Below are positions 53,233 through 59,683 of a stretch of 63,590 nt of DNA, piece after piece (position 1 is the first letter of the stretch; every line of letters begins with the position of its first letter). The notes beneath the pieces were generated by a model. The model was not told where the DNA came from. It searched no databases and worked only from the letters and a program-made list of their open reading frames with translations. The position numbers and the translations under genes were made by a program. The stretch lies in assembly GCA_949373255.1 (NCBI GenBank), contig CASICS010000008.1:1-63590 (forward strand), given 5' to 3'. Origin of the DNA: an uncultured SAR86 cluster bacterium (GTDB taxonomy: Bacteria; Pseudomonadota; Gammaproteobacteria; Magnimaribacterales; AG-339-G14).

Positions 53233-55249
53233 TTAAAGTTGTATAGCTAGTTTTAAGCCTATGTTTTTACCTGGCAAAGGCAGTTCATTTTTAACAATAG
53301 AAGAATGATTTCTTGCAATTTCATCTAATAAATTATTTGCAAAAAGTATTACTCTAAAGTTTTCAACGCCTTCAACTGCAAAAGATTGGCCAATACTCAA
53401 ATCAAGCATTTCATATCCAGCTGTAGCAGTCTCTCCTGCACCTATGTCGTTTTGCGGCTTAACATTAGTCAAACCTAAATCAACAGACAGGCTATCCTCT
53501 TCATAAGAAAGCGAATAAATGACTCTAGCCGGAAGAATTCGAGGGATGTTTTCACCGTTCGCAAAAGTTCCTTCTACTTGGTCTCTTCCAATTGAAAGAT
53601 CTAAGCTTCCGTTATAGAAATCCATTTTGGTACCAAACTGAATTTCGTAACCTTCAAGCTCAGCATCTTTCTGAAGATAGTTAGCGACTATCGTTCCACT
53701 GATTGTGTTAGAAGAATCTTTAAGATAGATATAGTTATCAATATCATTTTGATAAAAATTAACCGATCCATAAACGCCATCGTTATCAAAGTTTAAAGAA
53801 AGATCGATATTTTGTGCCTCTTCAGATTGAAGATTGGGATTTCCCTTTTCAAATCTATTTATGGCCGCATGTTTACCATTCATAAACATTTCAACCGACG
53901 AAGGCGCTCTTTCTACTGAACCAATACTAATATTAAAATCTGTCATTGCATTAAGCTCATAACATAATCCCATTACATAACTAGTAAGGTCTAAATCTTT
54001 GTCATAAGCAGTAGAGCCAATCAAACTTTTTCTATTAACTTCATCTCTTCTTACTCCAAAGTCTAAATGGACTGAGGAAAATTGTTTTGCTAAATAATAC
54101 CCAATACTCGTTTCCTCGCTTTGAACAGAATTCATAAAAGCTTCATCTCCAAGGATAGCAGTGTCTTCATCCATTGAACGGATGACAAATTTTTGCGTTA
54201 AAGAATCATCAGAAGATATATCTAATATTGTTCCATATTCTTTAGCATCATTTGTAAAAGTTGTTTTTTTGCCATCATCTTCTCCGCCTATATGACCTTC
54301 TATAAGAGAGTAATCAGTATTGCTGTAAAAATAATCTATTTGATTCAACAAATCACCTGAAACTAAATATGAACCTTTAAGATTGATAGTGTCTGAGTCA
54401 GTAGCAGAAAAGATTCTTTCTTCTTCGTGTTCATCTTCATCTACATCTTCATCATCATGATCGCCGTGAAAAGGAATTCCATAAAGATTTTCTATATTTT
54501 TGAAAGACAAGCCAAAGTAACCCCAATCTTCTACAACTGAAAAACCAGCTTTGTATGCAGAAGATTTAGAATCGGAATTAGGCATATGATCTTTTTCCTC
54601 ATCATCATCACCTTCTTCGTGAATAACTGCTTCAGCTGGTATTTCAAAGTTATTAAAGTTTGAATGAGCATATGAAAGACTCAAATTAATATCTTGAATA
54701 TTATCGCTAAAGTTGATGTTGTGAACTTTTCCATCGTTAACCGAATTATGCTCGACTCCAAGATTTATTTTCTGTTCGGATAGATCTTTTGTAGCGATTG
54801 AATTATCAACAACGTTGACAATTCCTCCAAGAGCACCATTGCTGTAAAGCAAAGACATTGGTCCTCGCACAACTTCTATTTGCTGAACATTACTCAATTC
54901 AACATCATTTTGATGATCAGAACCAATTCCAGAAACATCACGGACTACTAAGCCATTTTCTAGAACTTTAACTCTAGGGCCTGAAAGACCTCTAATGACA
55001 GGTTGCCCAACAGCCGAACCATAGTCAGATGAAGCAATTCCTAGAAGACCATCAAGAGATTCACCTAAACTGAGAGTTCCTATTTTATTAAGATCTTCTT
55101 CAGAGACGATGTGAATTGGATTTTCGATTTGATTTTCTGATAAGCCTAAAATGGATGAATTTACCAATTACGTATTCAACTTCATCAGCGTAGGCTAGAT
55201 TTGTTATAAAGATGCTCAAAATGCTGAGCATGTATGCTAGTTTTTTCAT
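53233..55249 (-). CDS. ZnuD-like TonB-dependent receptor, signal peptide frameshifted
   Basis: The main frame (53233-55167, 644 residues) encodes plug and barrel: VIRGLSGPRVKVLENG, VRDVSGIGSDHQ, VEVVRGPMSLLYSNGALGG-type motifs as in zinc receptor ZnuD, and His/Asp/Glu-rich loops (DDEDVDEDEHEEE). It starts at a TTG with no signal peptide. Just upstream, in the next frame, an ATG at 55249 with a strong AGGAGGT encodes a clean signal peptide (MKKLAYMLSILSIF ... AYA-DEVEYV). Removing one G near 55165 joins the two. This is a 1-nt insertion: a pseudogene, a sequencing error or programmed shifting. Confidence 0.85.
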
Positions 55250-55269
55250 AATACCTCCTATGAAAAATT

Positions 55270-55303
55270 AAAATTTAAATTTGAAAAGAAAAATTTAAAT
55301 TTT
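55270..55303 (-). promoter_or_regulatory. AT-only inverted repeat before the ZnuD-like receptor
   Basis: AAAATTTAAATTT and AAATTTAAATTTT flank an 8 nt spacer, 21-54 nt upstream of the signal-peptide ATG. It may be an operator or promoter-region curve; AT-rich repeats also arise by chance. Confidence 0.35.
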
Positions 55304-55313
55304 AGGAGGTGCT

Positions 55314-55568
55314 CTAGATTGAAAATTCTTTTGGTCCTTGAGGGAGAACAATTAATTGTTTTTCAGAAACAAAAATAGTGCTTACATAAAGCTTTTCATC
55401 AATAGAACATGATGAAAGTAAATTAGTAAGCTCATTATTATAAAATTGACATGCTACTTCAGAAGATTCTTCTGTGAAATGATCATGAACTAAAGGGTCT
55501 ATAGACGCTGCTGCAATTAATATAAGAGCAGATAATAATAAAAAGTTTTTGTTAGTAATGAATTTCAA
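55314..55568 (-). CDS. Small protein with a HDH motif between pip and the ZnuD-like receptor
   Basis: From a TTG at 55568 this is an 84-residue protein with one hydrophobic N-terminal segment and a periplasmic part containing DPLVHDHF and two Cys (VACQFY, SSCS). The frame is open further to a TTG at 55643 inside the pip gene. His and Cys near the anchor and the place before a ZnuD-like gene suggest metal binding, but no family is recognised. Confidence 0.45.
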   Translation of the reverse strand: MKFITNKNFLLLSALILIAAASIDPLVHDHFTEESSEVACQFYNNELTNLLSSCSIDEKLYVSTIFVSEKQLIVLPQGPKEFSI

Positions 55569-55633
55569 GGCGTAATAGTAATATATTTTTACAGGAAGGG
55601 AAATTAATATAATTTTAAAAAAAATTATTATTT

Positions 55634-56593
55634 TTATTCGCAAAACTTATCCGTTGTTTCGATAAGCATTTTTGATATCTCTTTTTCGAAGGCAGAATGC
55701 CCAGAGAAAGGAGCAATTCTCAGTTCTGCTTCAGGCCACTCAGAGTAGAGTTCATAGGCAGTTATTGGAGGACAAACAACATCATATCTTCCTTGAATAA
55801 TTACAGCAGGAATATGTCTAATCAAATCTATATTATCTAAAAGTTGATTTTCATTATCTAAAAATCCTTTGTTTATAAAGTAGTGATTTTCAATAAGAGC
55901 AAAGGCTAAGGCAAATTCTGCGTTGACAGAATCTTTTACTGCATCAGGATTATGATTGATAAAACTCGCTGACGCTTCCCATTTAGACCAAGCCTTAGCG
56001 GCAGATAATTTTTTTTCCTTATCTTCGCCATTGAAGATTTCTCTATAAGCAGTTATGTAGTCCGATCTTTGATCTTCTGGTATTTGACTAATAAATCTCT
56101 GCCATGCTTCGGGATATATTTCACTTGCTCCATATTGGTAAAACCAGCTGAGTTCTTTATCTCTAAGCATAAAGATGCCTCTTAAAACCATTTCTGTAAC
56201 TCGTTCCGGGTAACTTTGAGCATATGCAAGAGCAAGCGTACTTCCCCATGAGCCACCAAATACAAGCCAATTATCTATTTCCAATTTTTTTCTTATGGAT
56301 TCAATATCTTCAACAAGATGCCAAGTGGTATTTTCCTCAAGGCAGGTATGAGGCTTACTCTTGCCACAACCCCTTTGGTCAAAAAGAATTATTCTGTATT
56401 TTTTTGGATTGAAAAATCTTCTTGAGAGTTTTCCCGCGCCACCACCAGGCCCCCCATGAAGAAAAATAGCTGGTTTGCCTTTTGGATTGCCACACTGCTC
56501 ATAATAAATTTCGTGAATACCTTTTTTAATAAAGCCCGAATCAAATGGCTCAATAGATGGATATAGTTTGTTATCTTTTTTAAAAAGTTTCAT
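55634..56593 (-). CDS. pip: Proline iminopeptidase
   Basis: A 319-residue alpha/beta hydrolase that removes N-terminal proline. HGGPGGGAGK forms the oxyanion region, FDQRGCGKSKPH is typical, and the nucleophile lies in GGSWGSTLAL. The late Asp and His are in GRYDVVCP and FSGHSAFE. The family length is normal. It lies between the metal cassette and the receptor, and unlike its neighbours has no obvious metal link. Confidence 0.94.
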   Translation of the reverse strand: MKLFKKDNKLYPSIEPFDSGFIKKGIHEIYYEQCGNPKGKPAIFLHGGPGGGAGKLSRRFFNPKKYRIILFDQRGCGKSKPHTCLEENTTWHLVEDIESIRKKLEIDNWLVFGGSWGSTLALAYAQSYPERVTEMVLRGIFMLRDKELSWFYQYGASEIYPEAWQRFISQIPEDQRSDYITAYREIFNGEDKEKKLSAAKAWSKWEASASFINHNPDAVKDSVNAEFALAFALIENHYFINKGFLDNENQLLDNIDLIRHIPAVIIQGRYDVVCPPITAYELYSEWPEAELRIAPFSGHSAFEKEISKMLIETTDKFCE

Positions 56594-56653: not shown

Positions 56654-56674
56654 GGCGGTGCCCAGGGGCGGAAT
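56654..56674 (-). repeat. Partial tRNA 3'-end copy (att-like)
   Basis: These 21 bp match the tRNA-Phe 3' end (58453-58473) at 18 positions, in the same orientation, and the three differences are all transitions. No full tRNA surrounds it. It lies downstream of the tRNA, where an integration event would leave a remnant. Confidence 0.6.
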
Positions 56675-56695
56675 AAGTCAGAGCAATAATTTAGT

Positions 56696-56956
56696 TTATC
56701 GTTTAAGGGTTTTCAATATTTCATCAACTTTATCATCAAAACTTTTTTCATCATTTAATGCATCTTTAACGCATTCTTTCATATGTTTTTTTAAAATTTT
56801 TCCTTCCACTCTTGTAATAGCACTTCTAACTGCCTTGATTTGATTAAGTATATCAATGCAATACTTATCTTCATTAATCATATTGGCAATTCCACGAACT
56901 TGCCCCTCAATTCTATTAAGACTGGGAATTTCTTCTTTATGGCATGGGTGTTTCAT
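56696..56956 (-). CDS. csoR: CsoR-family copper-sensing repressor
   Basis: An 86-residue four-helix repressor of the CsoR/RcnR/FrmR family (LNRIEGQVRGIANMI, QIKAVRSAI). Cys33, His58 and Cys62 have the same spacing (25 and 4) as the Cys-His-Cys Cu(I) site of Mycobacterium CsoR, so copper is the likely signal. ATGA overlaps the MerT-like stop. A CsoR-type operator sits at the first gene of the cassette, so it probably represses its own operon. Confidence 0.9.
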   Translation of the reverse strand: MKHPCHKEEIPSLNRIEGQVRGIANMINEDKYCIDILNQIKAVRSAITRVEGKILKKHMKECVKDALNDEKSFDDKVDEILKTLKR

Positions 56957-57318
56957 ATAAATTTTGGGATTATGTAAGTGAATATTGTAGCAAAAATAAA
57001 TAATGCAACTGAAAAGTAATAAACGTATCTTGAGCGACTTCTAGTTTTTATGCACAACCTTCCTAACTCGGGATCAGCAGGACAGGGCATGTGGTAGGTT
57101 ATATAGTTCACATAACCGGCAATAAAAATTATCAAAAATGCAAATAAAGTTACGTATAACTTATATTGCGATAAAACAATTAGAAATGGAAAAACTGTAA
57201 TGAAACTTGCAAAAGAAGCGCCCGCACCAATAACAACAAACAATGAAGGAAGTGCACAACATATTAAAGTTGAAGAAGAGGCAAATAAGGATAAAAAATT
57301 TGCAGATTTATCTTGCAT
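56953..57318 (-). CDS. MerT-like metal transporter
   Basis: A 121-residue inner-membrane protein with three to four helices. SSTLICCALPSLFVVIGAGA, cited in parts, carries a Cys-Cys pair in helix one, and the loop PCPADPELGRLC holds further Cys, as in MerT-like mercuric transporters. With CsoR and an HMA protein it may move copper instead of mercury. It lies between the HMA protein gene (5 nt) and csoR (4 nt overlap). Confidence 0.82.
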   Translation of the reverse strand: MQDKSANFLSLFASSSTLICCALPSLFVVIGAGASFASFITVFPFLIVLSQYKLYVTLFAFLIIFIAGYVNYITYHMPCPADPELGRLCIKTRSRSRYVYYFSVALFIFATIFTYIIPKFI

Positions 57319-57323
57319 AACTT

Positions 57324-57725
57324 TTATAGATTAATGACCTGCATATCAATTGCATTTTGTCCGTTTATTAGAATCTTCTCTTTGATATCTTCAAAGGTTA
57401 TTTTCTGAGTATTATTGTATGCAATTAAAACCTTGCCTTTGCTCAGATCAACGTCAATTTTTTTAACATTAGCTTCCTTCTTGAATGTTTTTTCAATACC
57501 TCTAGCGCAAAAATCACACACCATGCCTTTAACATTCAAGACTGCAATTTGAGAATCTTTAAGATCCATAATAAATCTATCAAATCTCTCAGGATCAACT
57601 TCATATTTCTTTCCATCGACTAGTTTTTCATGCAGATGTCCCTCATGAGAATTATGCATATGATCATGCGGGTTTTCTGCCCAAGTAATTGAAGTAAAAA
57701 CTAGTAACAATAATATTTTTTTCAT
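57324..57725 (-). CDS. Periplasmic heavy-metal-associated (HMA) domain protein
   Basis: A 133-residue protein with signal peptide (MKKILLLLVFTSITWA), a His-rich segment (HDHMHNSHEGHLHE) and a C-terminal HMA domain with the CxxC site GMVCDFCARGIE. It probably binds Cu(I) or another soft metal in the periplasm and passes it on, like MerP for MerT. AGGAAA precedes the ATG. Confidence 0.88.
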   Translation of the reverse strand: MKKILLLLVFTSITWAENPHDHMHNSHEGHLHEKLVDGKKYEVDPERFDRFIMDLKDSQIAVLNVKGMVCDFCARGIEKTFKKEANVKKIDVDLSKGKVLIAYNNTQKITFEDIKEKILINGQNAIDMQVINL

Positions 57726-57733
57726 ATTTTTTC

Positions 57734-58333
57734 CTAAAATCTATACATTAAATGAACATCCCAATTAGTTTGTTTGTGGTAACCAAATTCCATGAAAATG
57801 TTGCCTTTAAAAAACTTTAATACAGGATAAGTTGACCATTTATTCTCGAGTGAATTTTCTTTTGCCTTTAAAATTATCCACGTGTGAAAATCACCATAAT
57901 CACCAAGATAAGGTGCCACTCCTATTTGATAGTATTGTTCTAAATAATCTTGAATTTTTTTTTCAGTTTCCTTTAATCCAAAACCAATAAAAAATCTTCT
58001 TGTTTCCCAGTCCCCGTGAACACCATAAAAAAACTCATTAAATCCTTTTGAACTAATACCAGATTGAAAATATAAATTTCTTTGAGAGTCCTTAGTATTT
58101 TTTCTATTTAATAAATAAGTAAATCTCATATATGAATAATCGTCACTGAAATATTTATCCTTTATATTTTCAATACCAACTGAGTATTTATATGATGGCG
58201 AATAATGATAATAGAAAGAATTTTTTAAATTATCTGAAAACGTCATTATGGTTGAACCGCCTGTGTAAGATACAGGCCTAGCATCAAGCCCAAATGATAT
58301 AAAAGACAAGAGACAAATAATTCTTATACCCAT
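57734..58333 (-). CDS. Putative outer-membrane beta-barrel protein heading the metal cassette
   Basis: A 199-residue protein with a signal (MGIRIICLLSFISF) and alternating aromatic strands ending in Phe (WDVHLMYRF), typical of a small outer-membrane barrel. No family is recognised. The ATG at 58333 lies inside the CsoR-type operator, and no Shine-Dalgarno is seen, so the message may be leaderless; the open frame extends to a GTG at 58390. It is first in the order barrel-HMA-MerT-CsoR. Confidence 0.65.
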   Translation of the reverse strand: MGIRIICLLSFISFGLDARPVSYTGGSTIMTFSDNLKNSFYYHYSPSYKYSVGIENIKDKYFSDDYSYMRFTYLLNRKNTKDSQRNLYFQSGISSKGFNEFFYGVHGDWETRRFFIGFGLKETEKKIQDYLEQYYQIGVAPYLGDYGDFHTWIILKAKENSLENKWSTYPVLKFFKGNIFMEFGYHKQTNWDVHLMYRF

Positions 58334-58366
58334 GGGGGGTATATTAACATAAATGCTGTGAATCAA
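58325..58366 (-). promoter_or_regulatory. Candidate CsoR-type operator and overlapping promoter
   Basis: TATACCCATGGGGGGTATA (58325-58343) has 7 bp arms TATACCC/GGGTATA and a G tract, the form bound by CsoR/RcnR/FrmR repressors. On the minus strand TTGATT (58366-58361) and TATACC (58343-58338) form a -35/-10 pair with 17 bp spacing, so the operator would cover the -10. The predicted transcript start is at or near the ATG at 58333. Confidence 0.6.
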
Positions 58367-58454
58367 AATATTTGGTGTTTGTGCACACAAAGAAGAGTGT
58401 GCACGGGTGTGAACAGTTTTAAATCGTATACAATTAAGTGAAACTCAACGGTGG

Positions 58455-58530
58455 TGGTGCCCAGAGGTGGAATCGAACCACCGACACAAGGATTTTCAGT
58501 CCTTTGCTCTACCAACTGAGCTATCTGGGC
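58455..58530 (-). tRNA. tRNA-Phe (GAA)
   Basis: On the minus strand the acceptor arm GCCCAGA pairs with TCTGGGC, with an encoded CCA. The D arm AGCTCAGTTGGTAGAGC, anticodon loop ACTGAAAATCC with GAA and T arm GGTTCGATTCC are all normal, giving 76 nt. Its 3' end is copied in part at 56654-56674. Confidence 0.97.
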
Positions 58531-58594
58531 AAAAAGAAGTTGGATTTTATATAACTTTGGCATATAAACAAAGCATAGTTTTTGGAGAATAAAA

Positions 58595-59683
58595 ATTTTT
58601 GATGTAGTTATTATAGGTGCAGGTGTAATTGGGTTATCAATTGCTAAAGCTATTTCTGAAAAAGGACAATCGGTAATTGTGCTTGAAAAAGATGGTAGAG
58701 CAGGAGAGGGTGTATCTTCAAGAAACTCTGGAGTCATTCATGCAGGAATGTATTATCCAACGAACTCCATGAAATCTAAATTTTGTTTGGAAGGAAATAG
58801 ATTGCTCTATGAATATGCTGATTTAAAGAAAATTTCTCACAACAAAACAGGTAAATTCATTATTGCCTCAAAAAAAGAAGAAATCACTAAGTTAGAAAAA
58901 ATCTATAAACAAGGCTTAATAAATGGCGTAACTTTAGAAAAATTTGAAGGCAAAGAGATAAAGAAAATTGAACCGGTTTTGAATGTTGAAGCAGGTTTAT
59001 TATCTCCTGAAACTGGAATTATAGATGTTCCCGAGTTGGTAACGGCTTTAGAGGGTGATATTCAACACAGCGAAGGCATTATCGCATTCAACACTGAATT
59101 TATTTCTGCAAAAAAGAAAGGTGGATCATTTTCAATTATCTGTCGAGACAAAGAGAAATTTGAGATTCAATCTAAAGTTTTGATTAATTCTTCAGCTTTA
59201 AATTCAGATCTTGTCTCTAGAAATATAAAATCTTTAAAAGAGGAATATATTTATAAAATCAATTATGCGAAAGGGCACTACTTCAAATATTCTGGTCTGA
59301 ATCCTTTCTCTTCTTTAATTTATCCAGTGCCTGATGAATTTTCCCAAGGCTTGCATTTAGGCTTTGATATATCTAGACAGTTAAGATTTGGACCTGATAT
59401 CACTTGGGTAAAAGATATTAATTATTTATTTGATGAATCATTGAAAGAAAAGTTTATAAAAGCCATTCATAATTATTGGCCAGAAATGGATCCAGAAAAG
59501 TTAAATCCAGATTACACCGGGGTCAGACCAAAAATTCAAAATCCTAAAGAAAAAATGCAAGATTTTTCTATCTTGGAAGTTAATTCGCATGGAGTGGATG
59601 GTTTAATTAATTTGCAAGGAATGGAAAGTCCAGGATTAACCAGCAGTTTGGCTATAGGAAATTATGTAGCTTCAAGAGTTTAA
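58595..59683 (+). CDS. FAD-dependent oxidoreductase (L-2-hydroxyglutarate dehydrogenase-like), probable ATT start
   Basis: A 362-residue DAO-family flavoprotein. The N-terminal FAD motif IIGAGVIGLSIA is in frame upstream of the first GTG at 58679, so the gene must start earlier, yet no ATG, GTG or TTG exists before the stop at 58565. ATT at 58595 has GGAG 7 nt upstream and is the best start. SRNSGVIHAGMYYP and the C-terminal GLTSSLAIGNYVA match L2HGDH-type enzymes, which oxidise 2-hydroxy acids. The substrate is not fixed. Confidence 0.85.
   Translation: MFDVVIIGAGVIGLSIAKAISEKGQSVIVLEKDGRAGEGVSSRNSGVIHAGMYYPTNSMKSKFCLEGNRLLYEYADLKKISHNKTGKFIIASKKEEITKLEKIYKQGLINGVTLEKFEGKEIKKIEPVLNVEAGLLSPETGIIDVPELVTALEGDIQHSEGIIAFNTEFISAKKKGGSFSIICRDKEKFEIQSKVLINSSALNSDLVSRNIKSLKEEYIYKINYAKGHYFKYSGLNPFSSLIYPVPDEFSQGLHLGFDISRQLRFGPDITWVKDINYLFDESLKEKFIKAIHNYWPEMDPEKLNPDYTGVRPKIQNPKEKMQDFSILEVNSHGVDGLINLQGMESPGLTSSLAIGNYVASRV

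Follow-up and report, generated by a model that had tools for sequence, protein, structure and literature searches.

How bacteria with streamlined genomes and few known mobile elements swap genes in the ocean is an open question. The locus described here poses it in miniature: how did a four-gene metal operon come to lie between a tRNA gene and what resembles a fragment of that gene's own 3' end? The window, by which we mean the whole stretch of DNA analysed (63,590 nucleotides from an uncultured SAR86 cluster bacterium), belongs to a genome of 0.93 Mb in 26 contigs, 77% complete, which we call G000; other G-numbers denote the genomes compared with it. Its sole tRNA gene, found with ARAGORN, is tRNA-Phe(gaa) on the minus strand. 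The original prediction had seen a 21-bp repeat of the 3' end of this gene, a complete operon between the two copies and no remaining integrase, and had read the arrangement as an insertion at the tRNA 3' end with the remnant on its downstream side, either a mobilised satellite or a decayed island.

All the elements of that description are present. Positions 58453-58473 and 56654-56674 agree at 18 of 21 bases in the same orientation, and the three mismatches are all transitions (T>C, A>G, T>C). When up to three mismatches are allowed, the 21-mer occurs at these two sites alone in 63.6 kb, and 100 shuffles yielded no match. Outward from tRNA-Phe the genes run barrel, HMA, MerT-like, csoR and then pip, with the operon entirely on the minus strand; an integrase was not found between tRNA-Phe and the repeat. 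The locus is laid out as follows.

55634-56593, minus strand: pip, prolyl-iminopeptidase-like hydrolase; conserved downstream flank
56654-56674, minus strand: decayed distal att, a truncated copy of the tRNA-Phe 3' end (18/21); relatives have a full copy of about 46 bp at equal distance from pip
56675-56695, minus strand: deletion scar; relatives are about 140 bp longer here, with arm-like GTGCACACAGGTGTGCACACA repeats and the 5' part of att (alignment of cassette tails)
56696-56956, minus strand: csoR, CsoR-family repressor of 86 aa (PF02583, E 6.5e-29; PDB CsoR 4adz, E 2e-15)
56953-57318, minus strand: MerT-like inner-membrane protein of 121 aa; invariant CysCys and CPxDP..C in an alignment of 15 homologues
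57324-57725, minus strand: secreted, His-rich HMA-domain protein of 133 aa with CxxC, MerP/CopZ-like (PF00403, E 1.9e-9; CopZ, Cu-ATPase and MerP chains in the PDB)
57734-58333, minus strand: outer-membrane-type beta-barrel of 199 aa; signal peptide, then 12 predicted strands (AlphaFold2 pLDDT 83)
58326-58342, minus strand: CsoR-operator-like palindrome ATACCCCCCATGGGTAT, spanning the barrel start codon
58398-58416, minus strand: arm-like pair CTGTTCACA / CCGTGCACA, in tandem with a period of 10, 39 nt beyond the att core; the G009 and AG-390-J18 units agree with it in both position and period
58455-58530, minus strand: tRNA-Phe(gaa), the target gene (ARAGORN), whose 3' half is the proximal att core and is identical to the repeats of relatives
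58592-59683, plus strand: FAD-dependent oxidoreductase (DAO); opposite-side flank, conserved within the genus

A comparison of tetranucleotide profiles had been proposed as a check. The cassette is indeed mildly atypical (95th percentile among windows of the same contig; G+C 30.6% vs 33.4%), but composition is weak evidence on its own, and we do not rely on it.

More direct evidence comes from relatives. We compared pip and its neighbourhood across SAR86 genomes, a sample made up mostly of drafts and single-cell genomes, surveyed at this one tRNA site, tRNA-Phe. Nine sites are empty: 13-94 bp separate tRNA-Phe from the start of pip, and the flank sequences align. Four of these precise empty sites, which had been set as the check on the insertion, belong to congeners (G001, G003, G005, G006) and five to SAR86 genomes beyond the genus (G017, G023, G047, G088, G091). 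In other SAR86 genomes unrelated sequence, from 0.65 kb up to several kb long, fills the gap between tRNA-Phe and pip. The metal operon is found in this gap in G000, G002, G007, G008, G014 and G020, alone or beside other units, and its place varies, the order being tRNA, other unit, att, operon, att, pip in G002 and G007, and tRNA, operon, att, other insert, pip in G008 and G020. The number of cassettes at the locus differs between genomes, as in an additive flexible genomic island. At occupied sites, including the window, the sequence from att to pip aligns with the sequence that follows the tRNA at empty sites. With a direct repeat of the tRNA 3' end and empty sites in close relatives, the locus resembles a tRNA-targeted integrative element; the metal cassette has no integrase of its own.

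The repeat also proves longer than first described. In relatives it copies tRNA-Phe from the anticodon loop as far as the 3' end, about 46 bp in all (AACTGAAAATCCTTGTGTCGGTGGTTCGATTCCACCTCTGGGCACC); the 21 bp of the window are a truncated remnant of such a copy. Full copies bracket the operon in G002 and G007; copies are slightly mutated in G014 and G020, and the one between the operon and the next unit in G008 is degenerate (8/44 mismatches). Relatives thus carry att at both ends of a unit that has no recombinase, as cis-mobilizable elements do, and the window has one of its two att truncated. The intact repeats, empty sites and identical flanks of relatives bear out insertion at the tRNA 3' end; the 21-bp repeat is a decayed remnant of one end of a site-specific insertion. 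From the window copy, however, the tail of the cassette and the 5' part of att are gone when compared with relatives. Because this deletion took the far arm and the crossover half of att, the window copy is, judging by what is left of its end, probably fixed in place.

A standard arrangement for tyrosine integrases is to cross over in the anticodon loop and to have the 3' half of the tRNA supplied by the element. The tRNA-Phe gene of G010 (locus L173) has a compensatory GTAG/CTAC pair in its T-stem which the displaced copy lacks, as expected if the element brought the 3' half with it. We regard this pair as a likely sign of an incoming element rewriting the 3' half of the tRNA.

The operon is also exchanged between lineages. 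Two genomes from different genera, G007 and G008, share 99.2% identity over 1911 bp, in a block that opens 13 bp ahead of one att core and closes within the following one. Their flanks are only 78.6% and 66.7% identical, and the coding region of the cassette is 99.5% identical versus 77.3% for pip. Breakpoints at the cores, together with genus-specific flanks on the contigs, argue against binning errors, and this pair qualifies as recent horizontal transfer. In a tree of the concatenated four proteins, genera and families are intermixed, and G000 stands apart from its congeners G002 and G007. The window copy is not recent: it is 84-85% identical to other copies of the operon, and we therefore take it to be an older arrival.

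What does the unit carry? CsoR has the Cys-His-Cys and Tyr-Cys of copper-type CsoR (by eye), with Cys, His and Cys aligned to PDB CsoR chains, and both its PF02583 match and its Cys-His-Cys ligands place it in the copper-type family. The HMA protein starts with a signal-peptide-like sequence and scores far under the MerP cut-off; the MerT-like protein has no Pfam or NCBIfam match and no solved homologue, so that the apparent likeness to MerT and MerP is one of motif and gene order only. Among the nearest solved folds of the barrel are KdgM porins. The motif TACCCC-N1-4-ATGGGTA occurs once per locus in each of 81 operon-holding loci. Together the proteins would form a route across the outer membrane and the periplasm to the inner membrane, which, coupled with a copper sensor, suggests that the likely role of the cargo is copper-responsive metal handling, be it import or detoxification; the metal itself and the direction of transport we infer. 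As a separate observation, positions 53233-55643, beside the metal cassette, encode a TonB-dependent receptor with long His/Asp/Glu-rich stretches, preceded by a small ORF, which is possibly a zinc receptor.

Two aspects go beyond what the original prediction had in view: the cassette belongs to a large set of units, and integrase-bearing elements share its att. Between consecutive att cores we find 39 units of 654 to 9489 bp (median 1765). Their cargos include type I, II and IIG restriction-modification genes, methylases, an HNH (PtuB-like)/HIT pair, a short-chain dehydrogenase, a fatty-acid desaturase, a PhyH dioxygenase and many unknowns. Three of the 39 bear an integrase (G010, 4.2 kb; G032, 8.5 kb; G062, 9.5 kb), as does a fourth element, in G064, that is split over two contigs. 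The integrases of G032, G062 and G064 are homologous (46% identity to that of G032), and their start adjoins the distal att. That of G010 (L173 13918-15066) is a divergent tyrosine integrase of 382 aa which adjoins the tRNA, in a unit that also carries a DNA methyltransferase and a probable restriction enzyme. Note that a profile built on XerC and XerD missed this integrase, which Pfam and PHROGs recovered; further divergent recombinases may reside in uncharacterised ORFs. Nearly all SAR86 genomes otherwise have about two tyrosine recombinases, presumably XerC and XerD. As the window assembly is incomplete and fragmented (77%, 26 contigs), an integrase could also be absent from the assembly.

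Two of the integrase-bearing elements (L151 3367-12854 and L171 2103-10586) share an uncharacterised protein of 416-465 aa with a TVHDE motif (PHROG 4756). The first additionally has an SRAP gene and the second an HNH-HIT fusion, and both elements resemble small satellites. A phage origin was considered and rejected: in the viral collection neither att nor the MerT-like protein nor the G010 integrase had a match, and the G032 integrase had a single distant one. Nor does the metal cassette qualify as a phage satellite, having no phage genes and an att and MerT-like protein that are absent from viral contigs.

Slightly inward of the unit ends are tandem direct repeats, 9 bp long, whose distance from the att core is fixed: in tails 69-87 nt before it, with a period of 11 or 12, and in heads 26-66 nt after it, with a period of 10 or 11. 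These arm-like repeats, which we defined after inspection and set against strong controls, are found in 24/39 tails and 18/39 heads, compared with 0.5% and 0.8% of internal control stretches; 33 of the 39 units have them at one end or more. At a match of 8/9, none occurs in the nine empty sites. The arm words vary by unit (TGAACA, GTGCACA, GTCCCCA, AACACA, GTCATCA, GTGAACC), and a word is common to head and tail in 33% of comparisons within a unit versus 6% between units. We consequently rejected GTGCACAC as a general motif of all units: words differ between units, and it is position and period that are kept. An integrase-less unit in G030 carries GTGAACC, the arm word of the integrase-bearing element in G032. 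The metal cassettes of G002, G007, G008 and G014 have GTGCACACA-like pairs in their tails; an integrase with the GTGCACAC-type arms of the metal cassette was not found at the tRNA-Phe site. The window has lost its tail pair and retains a weaker head pair which, matching at 7/9 only, is weak when taken alone. The tandem repeats look like putative arm-type sites of integrases.

The operon is not confined to this site. A search with the MerT-like protein found 80 loci in records of SAR86, SAR92, Porticoccaceae and alphaproteobacteria; all four genes are present in 77, and most of the loci are not adjacent to a tRNA. In a Phyllobacteriaceae record (L261 3773-5733) the four-gene operon forms a 1.84-kb unit in tRNA-Arg(ccg), without an integrase. 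The tRNA's 3' part, starting at the anticodon loop, is repeated exactly, and an arm-like pair is located at a distance of 78 nt from the core. Here csoR is nearest the tRNA, the orientation opposite to that in SAR86 f1. Another class has therefore made the operon into a tRNA unit without an integrase, and at a second tRNA. In SAR86 f3 genomes (L152-L157, L195-L211) the operon is again located at tRNA-Phe but inverted, and in some cases younger units separate the two; a distal repeat was not found at these loci. In Porticoccaceae, we also noted the operon close to tRNA-Arg(acg) or tRNA-Ser(gga) (L256 5376-5801, L241 1251-3150), with no repeat within either locus.

Which account of the metal cassette do these observations favour? 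One could regard the 21-bp match as a chance relic of a tRNA, unconnected to mobility, given that it is imperfect and that the window has no integrase. The shuffles, together with relatives in which full repeats occupy this position, empty sites occur and the unit is exchanged, lead us to reject this reading, to which we assign a negligible probability. Alternatively, the operon might be ancestral at the locus, inherited vertically and lost repeatedly, a model to which the f3 operons beside tRNA-Phe, in the opposite orientation and with no distal repeat found, lend some credence. Under such a model we would not expect 99% identity across genera between flanks that are 67-79% identical, breakpoints that coincide with the cores, or an operon tree in which families are mixed, and the opposite orientations point to separate origins; we consider it very improbable.

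A different scenario is that the units are decayed islands, once inserted by their own, since-lost integrases and now exchanged by homologous recombination, following transformation or transduction, via att repeats and flanks. It would explain why an integrase is missing from most units, why some att and tail sequences have decayed, as in the window, and why there are only four integrase-bearing elements at the site. However, exchange tracts stop at the 46-bp cores and not in the flanks, integrase-less units keep arm-like repeats at fixed places where disuse would erase them, and many different cargos recur in units as small as 0.65 kb. We therefore think this scenario unlikely. Having observed empty sites, repeats, core-bounded exchange, mostly integrase-less units, arm-like repeats in fixed positions and integrase-bearing elements at the same att, we believe instead that the cassettes are probably non-autonomous, cis-mobilizable units moved in trans by integrases that target tRNA-Phe. 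The original choice between a mobilised satellite and a decayed island comes close to this: the cassette is of a non-autonomous mobile type and the window copy has decayed at one end.

Imagine, then, a tyrosine integrase, encoded elsewhere, that recombines the anticodon loop of tRNA-Phe with the matching sequence on a circular unit. As the unit would bring its own tRNA 3' half, the tRNA would stay whole and the displaced half would remain as a direct repeat at the far end. Units would in this way accumulate in tandem between tRNA-Phe and pip, the metal unit being a self-contained operon under its own CsoR operator, until, in the window, a deletion would have removed what the integrase needs at the far end and fixed the copy. 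Mobilisation in trans, excision, the circular form and the vector are parts of this model that we infer; no excised circle was seen.

Cassettes targeted to tRNA genes are already known from other marine bacteria, and the SAR86 case is a variant. Cis-mobilizable elements (CIMEs) are decayed ICEs or IMEs of many kb that lie next to an ICE. Like CIMEs and other hitcher elements (general review, PMC11389934), the SAR86 units have att at both ends and no recombinase, and their mobilisation presumably depends on a related element that shares their att. They differ from CIMEs in size (about 1.8 kb, with 1-4 cargo genes) and in that mostly no helper was found in the same genome; candidate helper integrases for mobilisation in trans are found at the tRNA-Phe att of other genomes.

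Additive flexible genomic islands with tRNA direct repeats have been described for Ca. Actinomarinales (PMC7771536), Methylophilaceae (fGI-2; PMC10872708) and Alteromonas (fGI1; PMC4119200), with transfer of cassettes between genera in the first (PMC7771536). As far as these accounts go, the shared features are a conserved tRNA target, small cassettes in variable number and partial-tRNA repeats at cassette ends. SAR86, by contrast, is a different order with a single tRNA-Phe site, and near-identical core-bounded exchange across genera, fixed arm-like repeats and integrase elements sharing the att do not appear in the available parts of those descriptions. The tycheposons of Prochlorococcus, as cited in PMC10872708 and PMC11389934, are elements of 4-200 kb with a tyrosine recombinase. 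On that description they too are cargo-bearing integrative elements at tRNA genes of small-genomed ocean bacteria, whereas SAR86 units mostly have no recombinase and the metal cassette, at 1.8 kb, falls outside the tycheposon definition. The Pseudomonas islands I23, I44 and I55, which are moved by phage, reside at tmRNA or tRNA genes and encode IntY and AlpA (PMC12595487), resemble the SAR86 units in having direct repeats at a tRNA-like gene, defence cargo and no transfer genes; SAR86 units usually lack a recombinase of their own. Finally, integron cassettes and CALINs (PMC11389934) are likewise small, recombinase-less and arrayed in tandem at one chromosomal site, but their core is attC, where that of the SAR86 units is a phage-type att within a tRNA gene. 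Our literature search, of incomplete coverage, returned no SAR86 report and no arm-like repeats on recombinase-less units.

The locus points to a concrete way in which streamlined ocean bacteria could exchange genes, namely as very small cassettes that have no recombinase but well-defined ends and arm-like sites, with candidate integrases as helpers. From the arm words one can predict the helper that moves a given cassette, making the idea testable with a few plasmids. A more general proposition, on which we judge the evidence to be evenly poised, is that SAR86, and probably other streamlined marine bacteria, possess an integron-like cassette system built on phage-type att, in which recombinase-less units, ranging in size between a few hundred bases and a few kb, keep arm sites of several specificities, rare helpers move them in trans into one tRNA gene, and the metal operon has taken on this form independently in different classes, at different tRNAs. 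Such a system may account for the presence of one metal operon at unrelated places across marine Proteobacteria.
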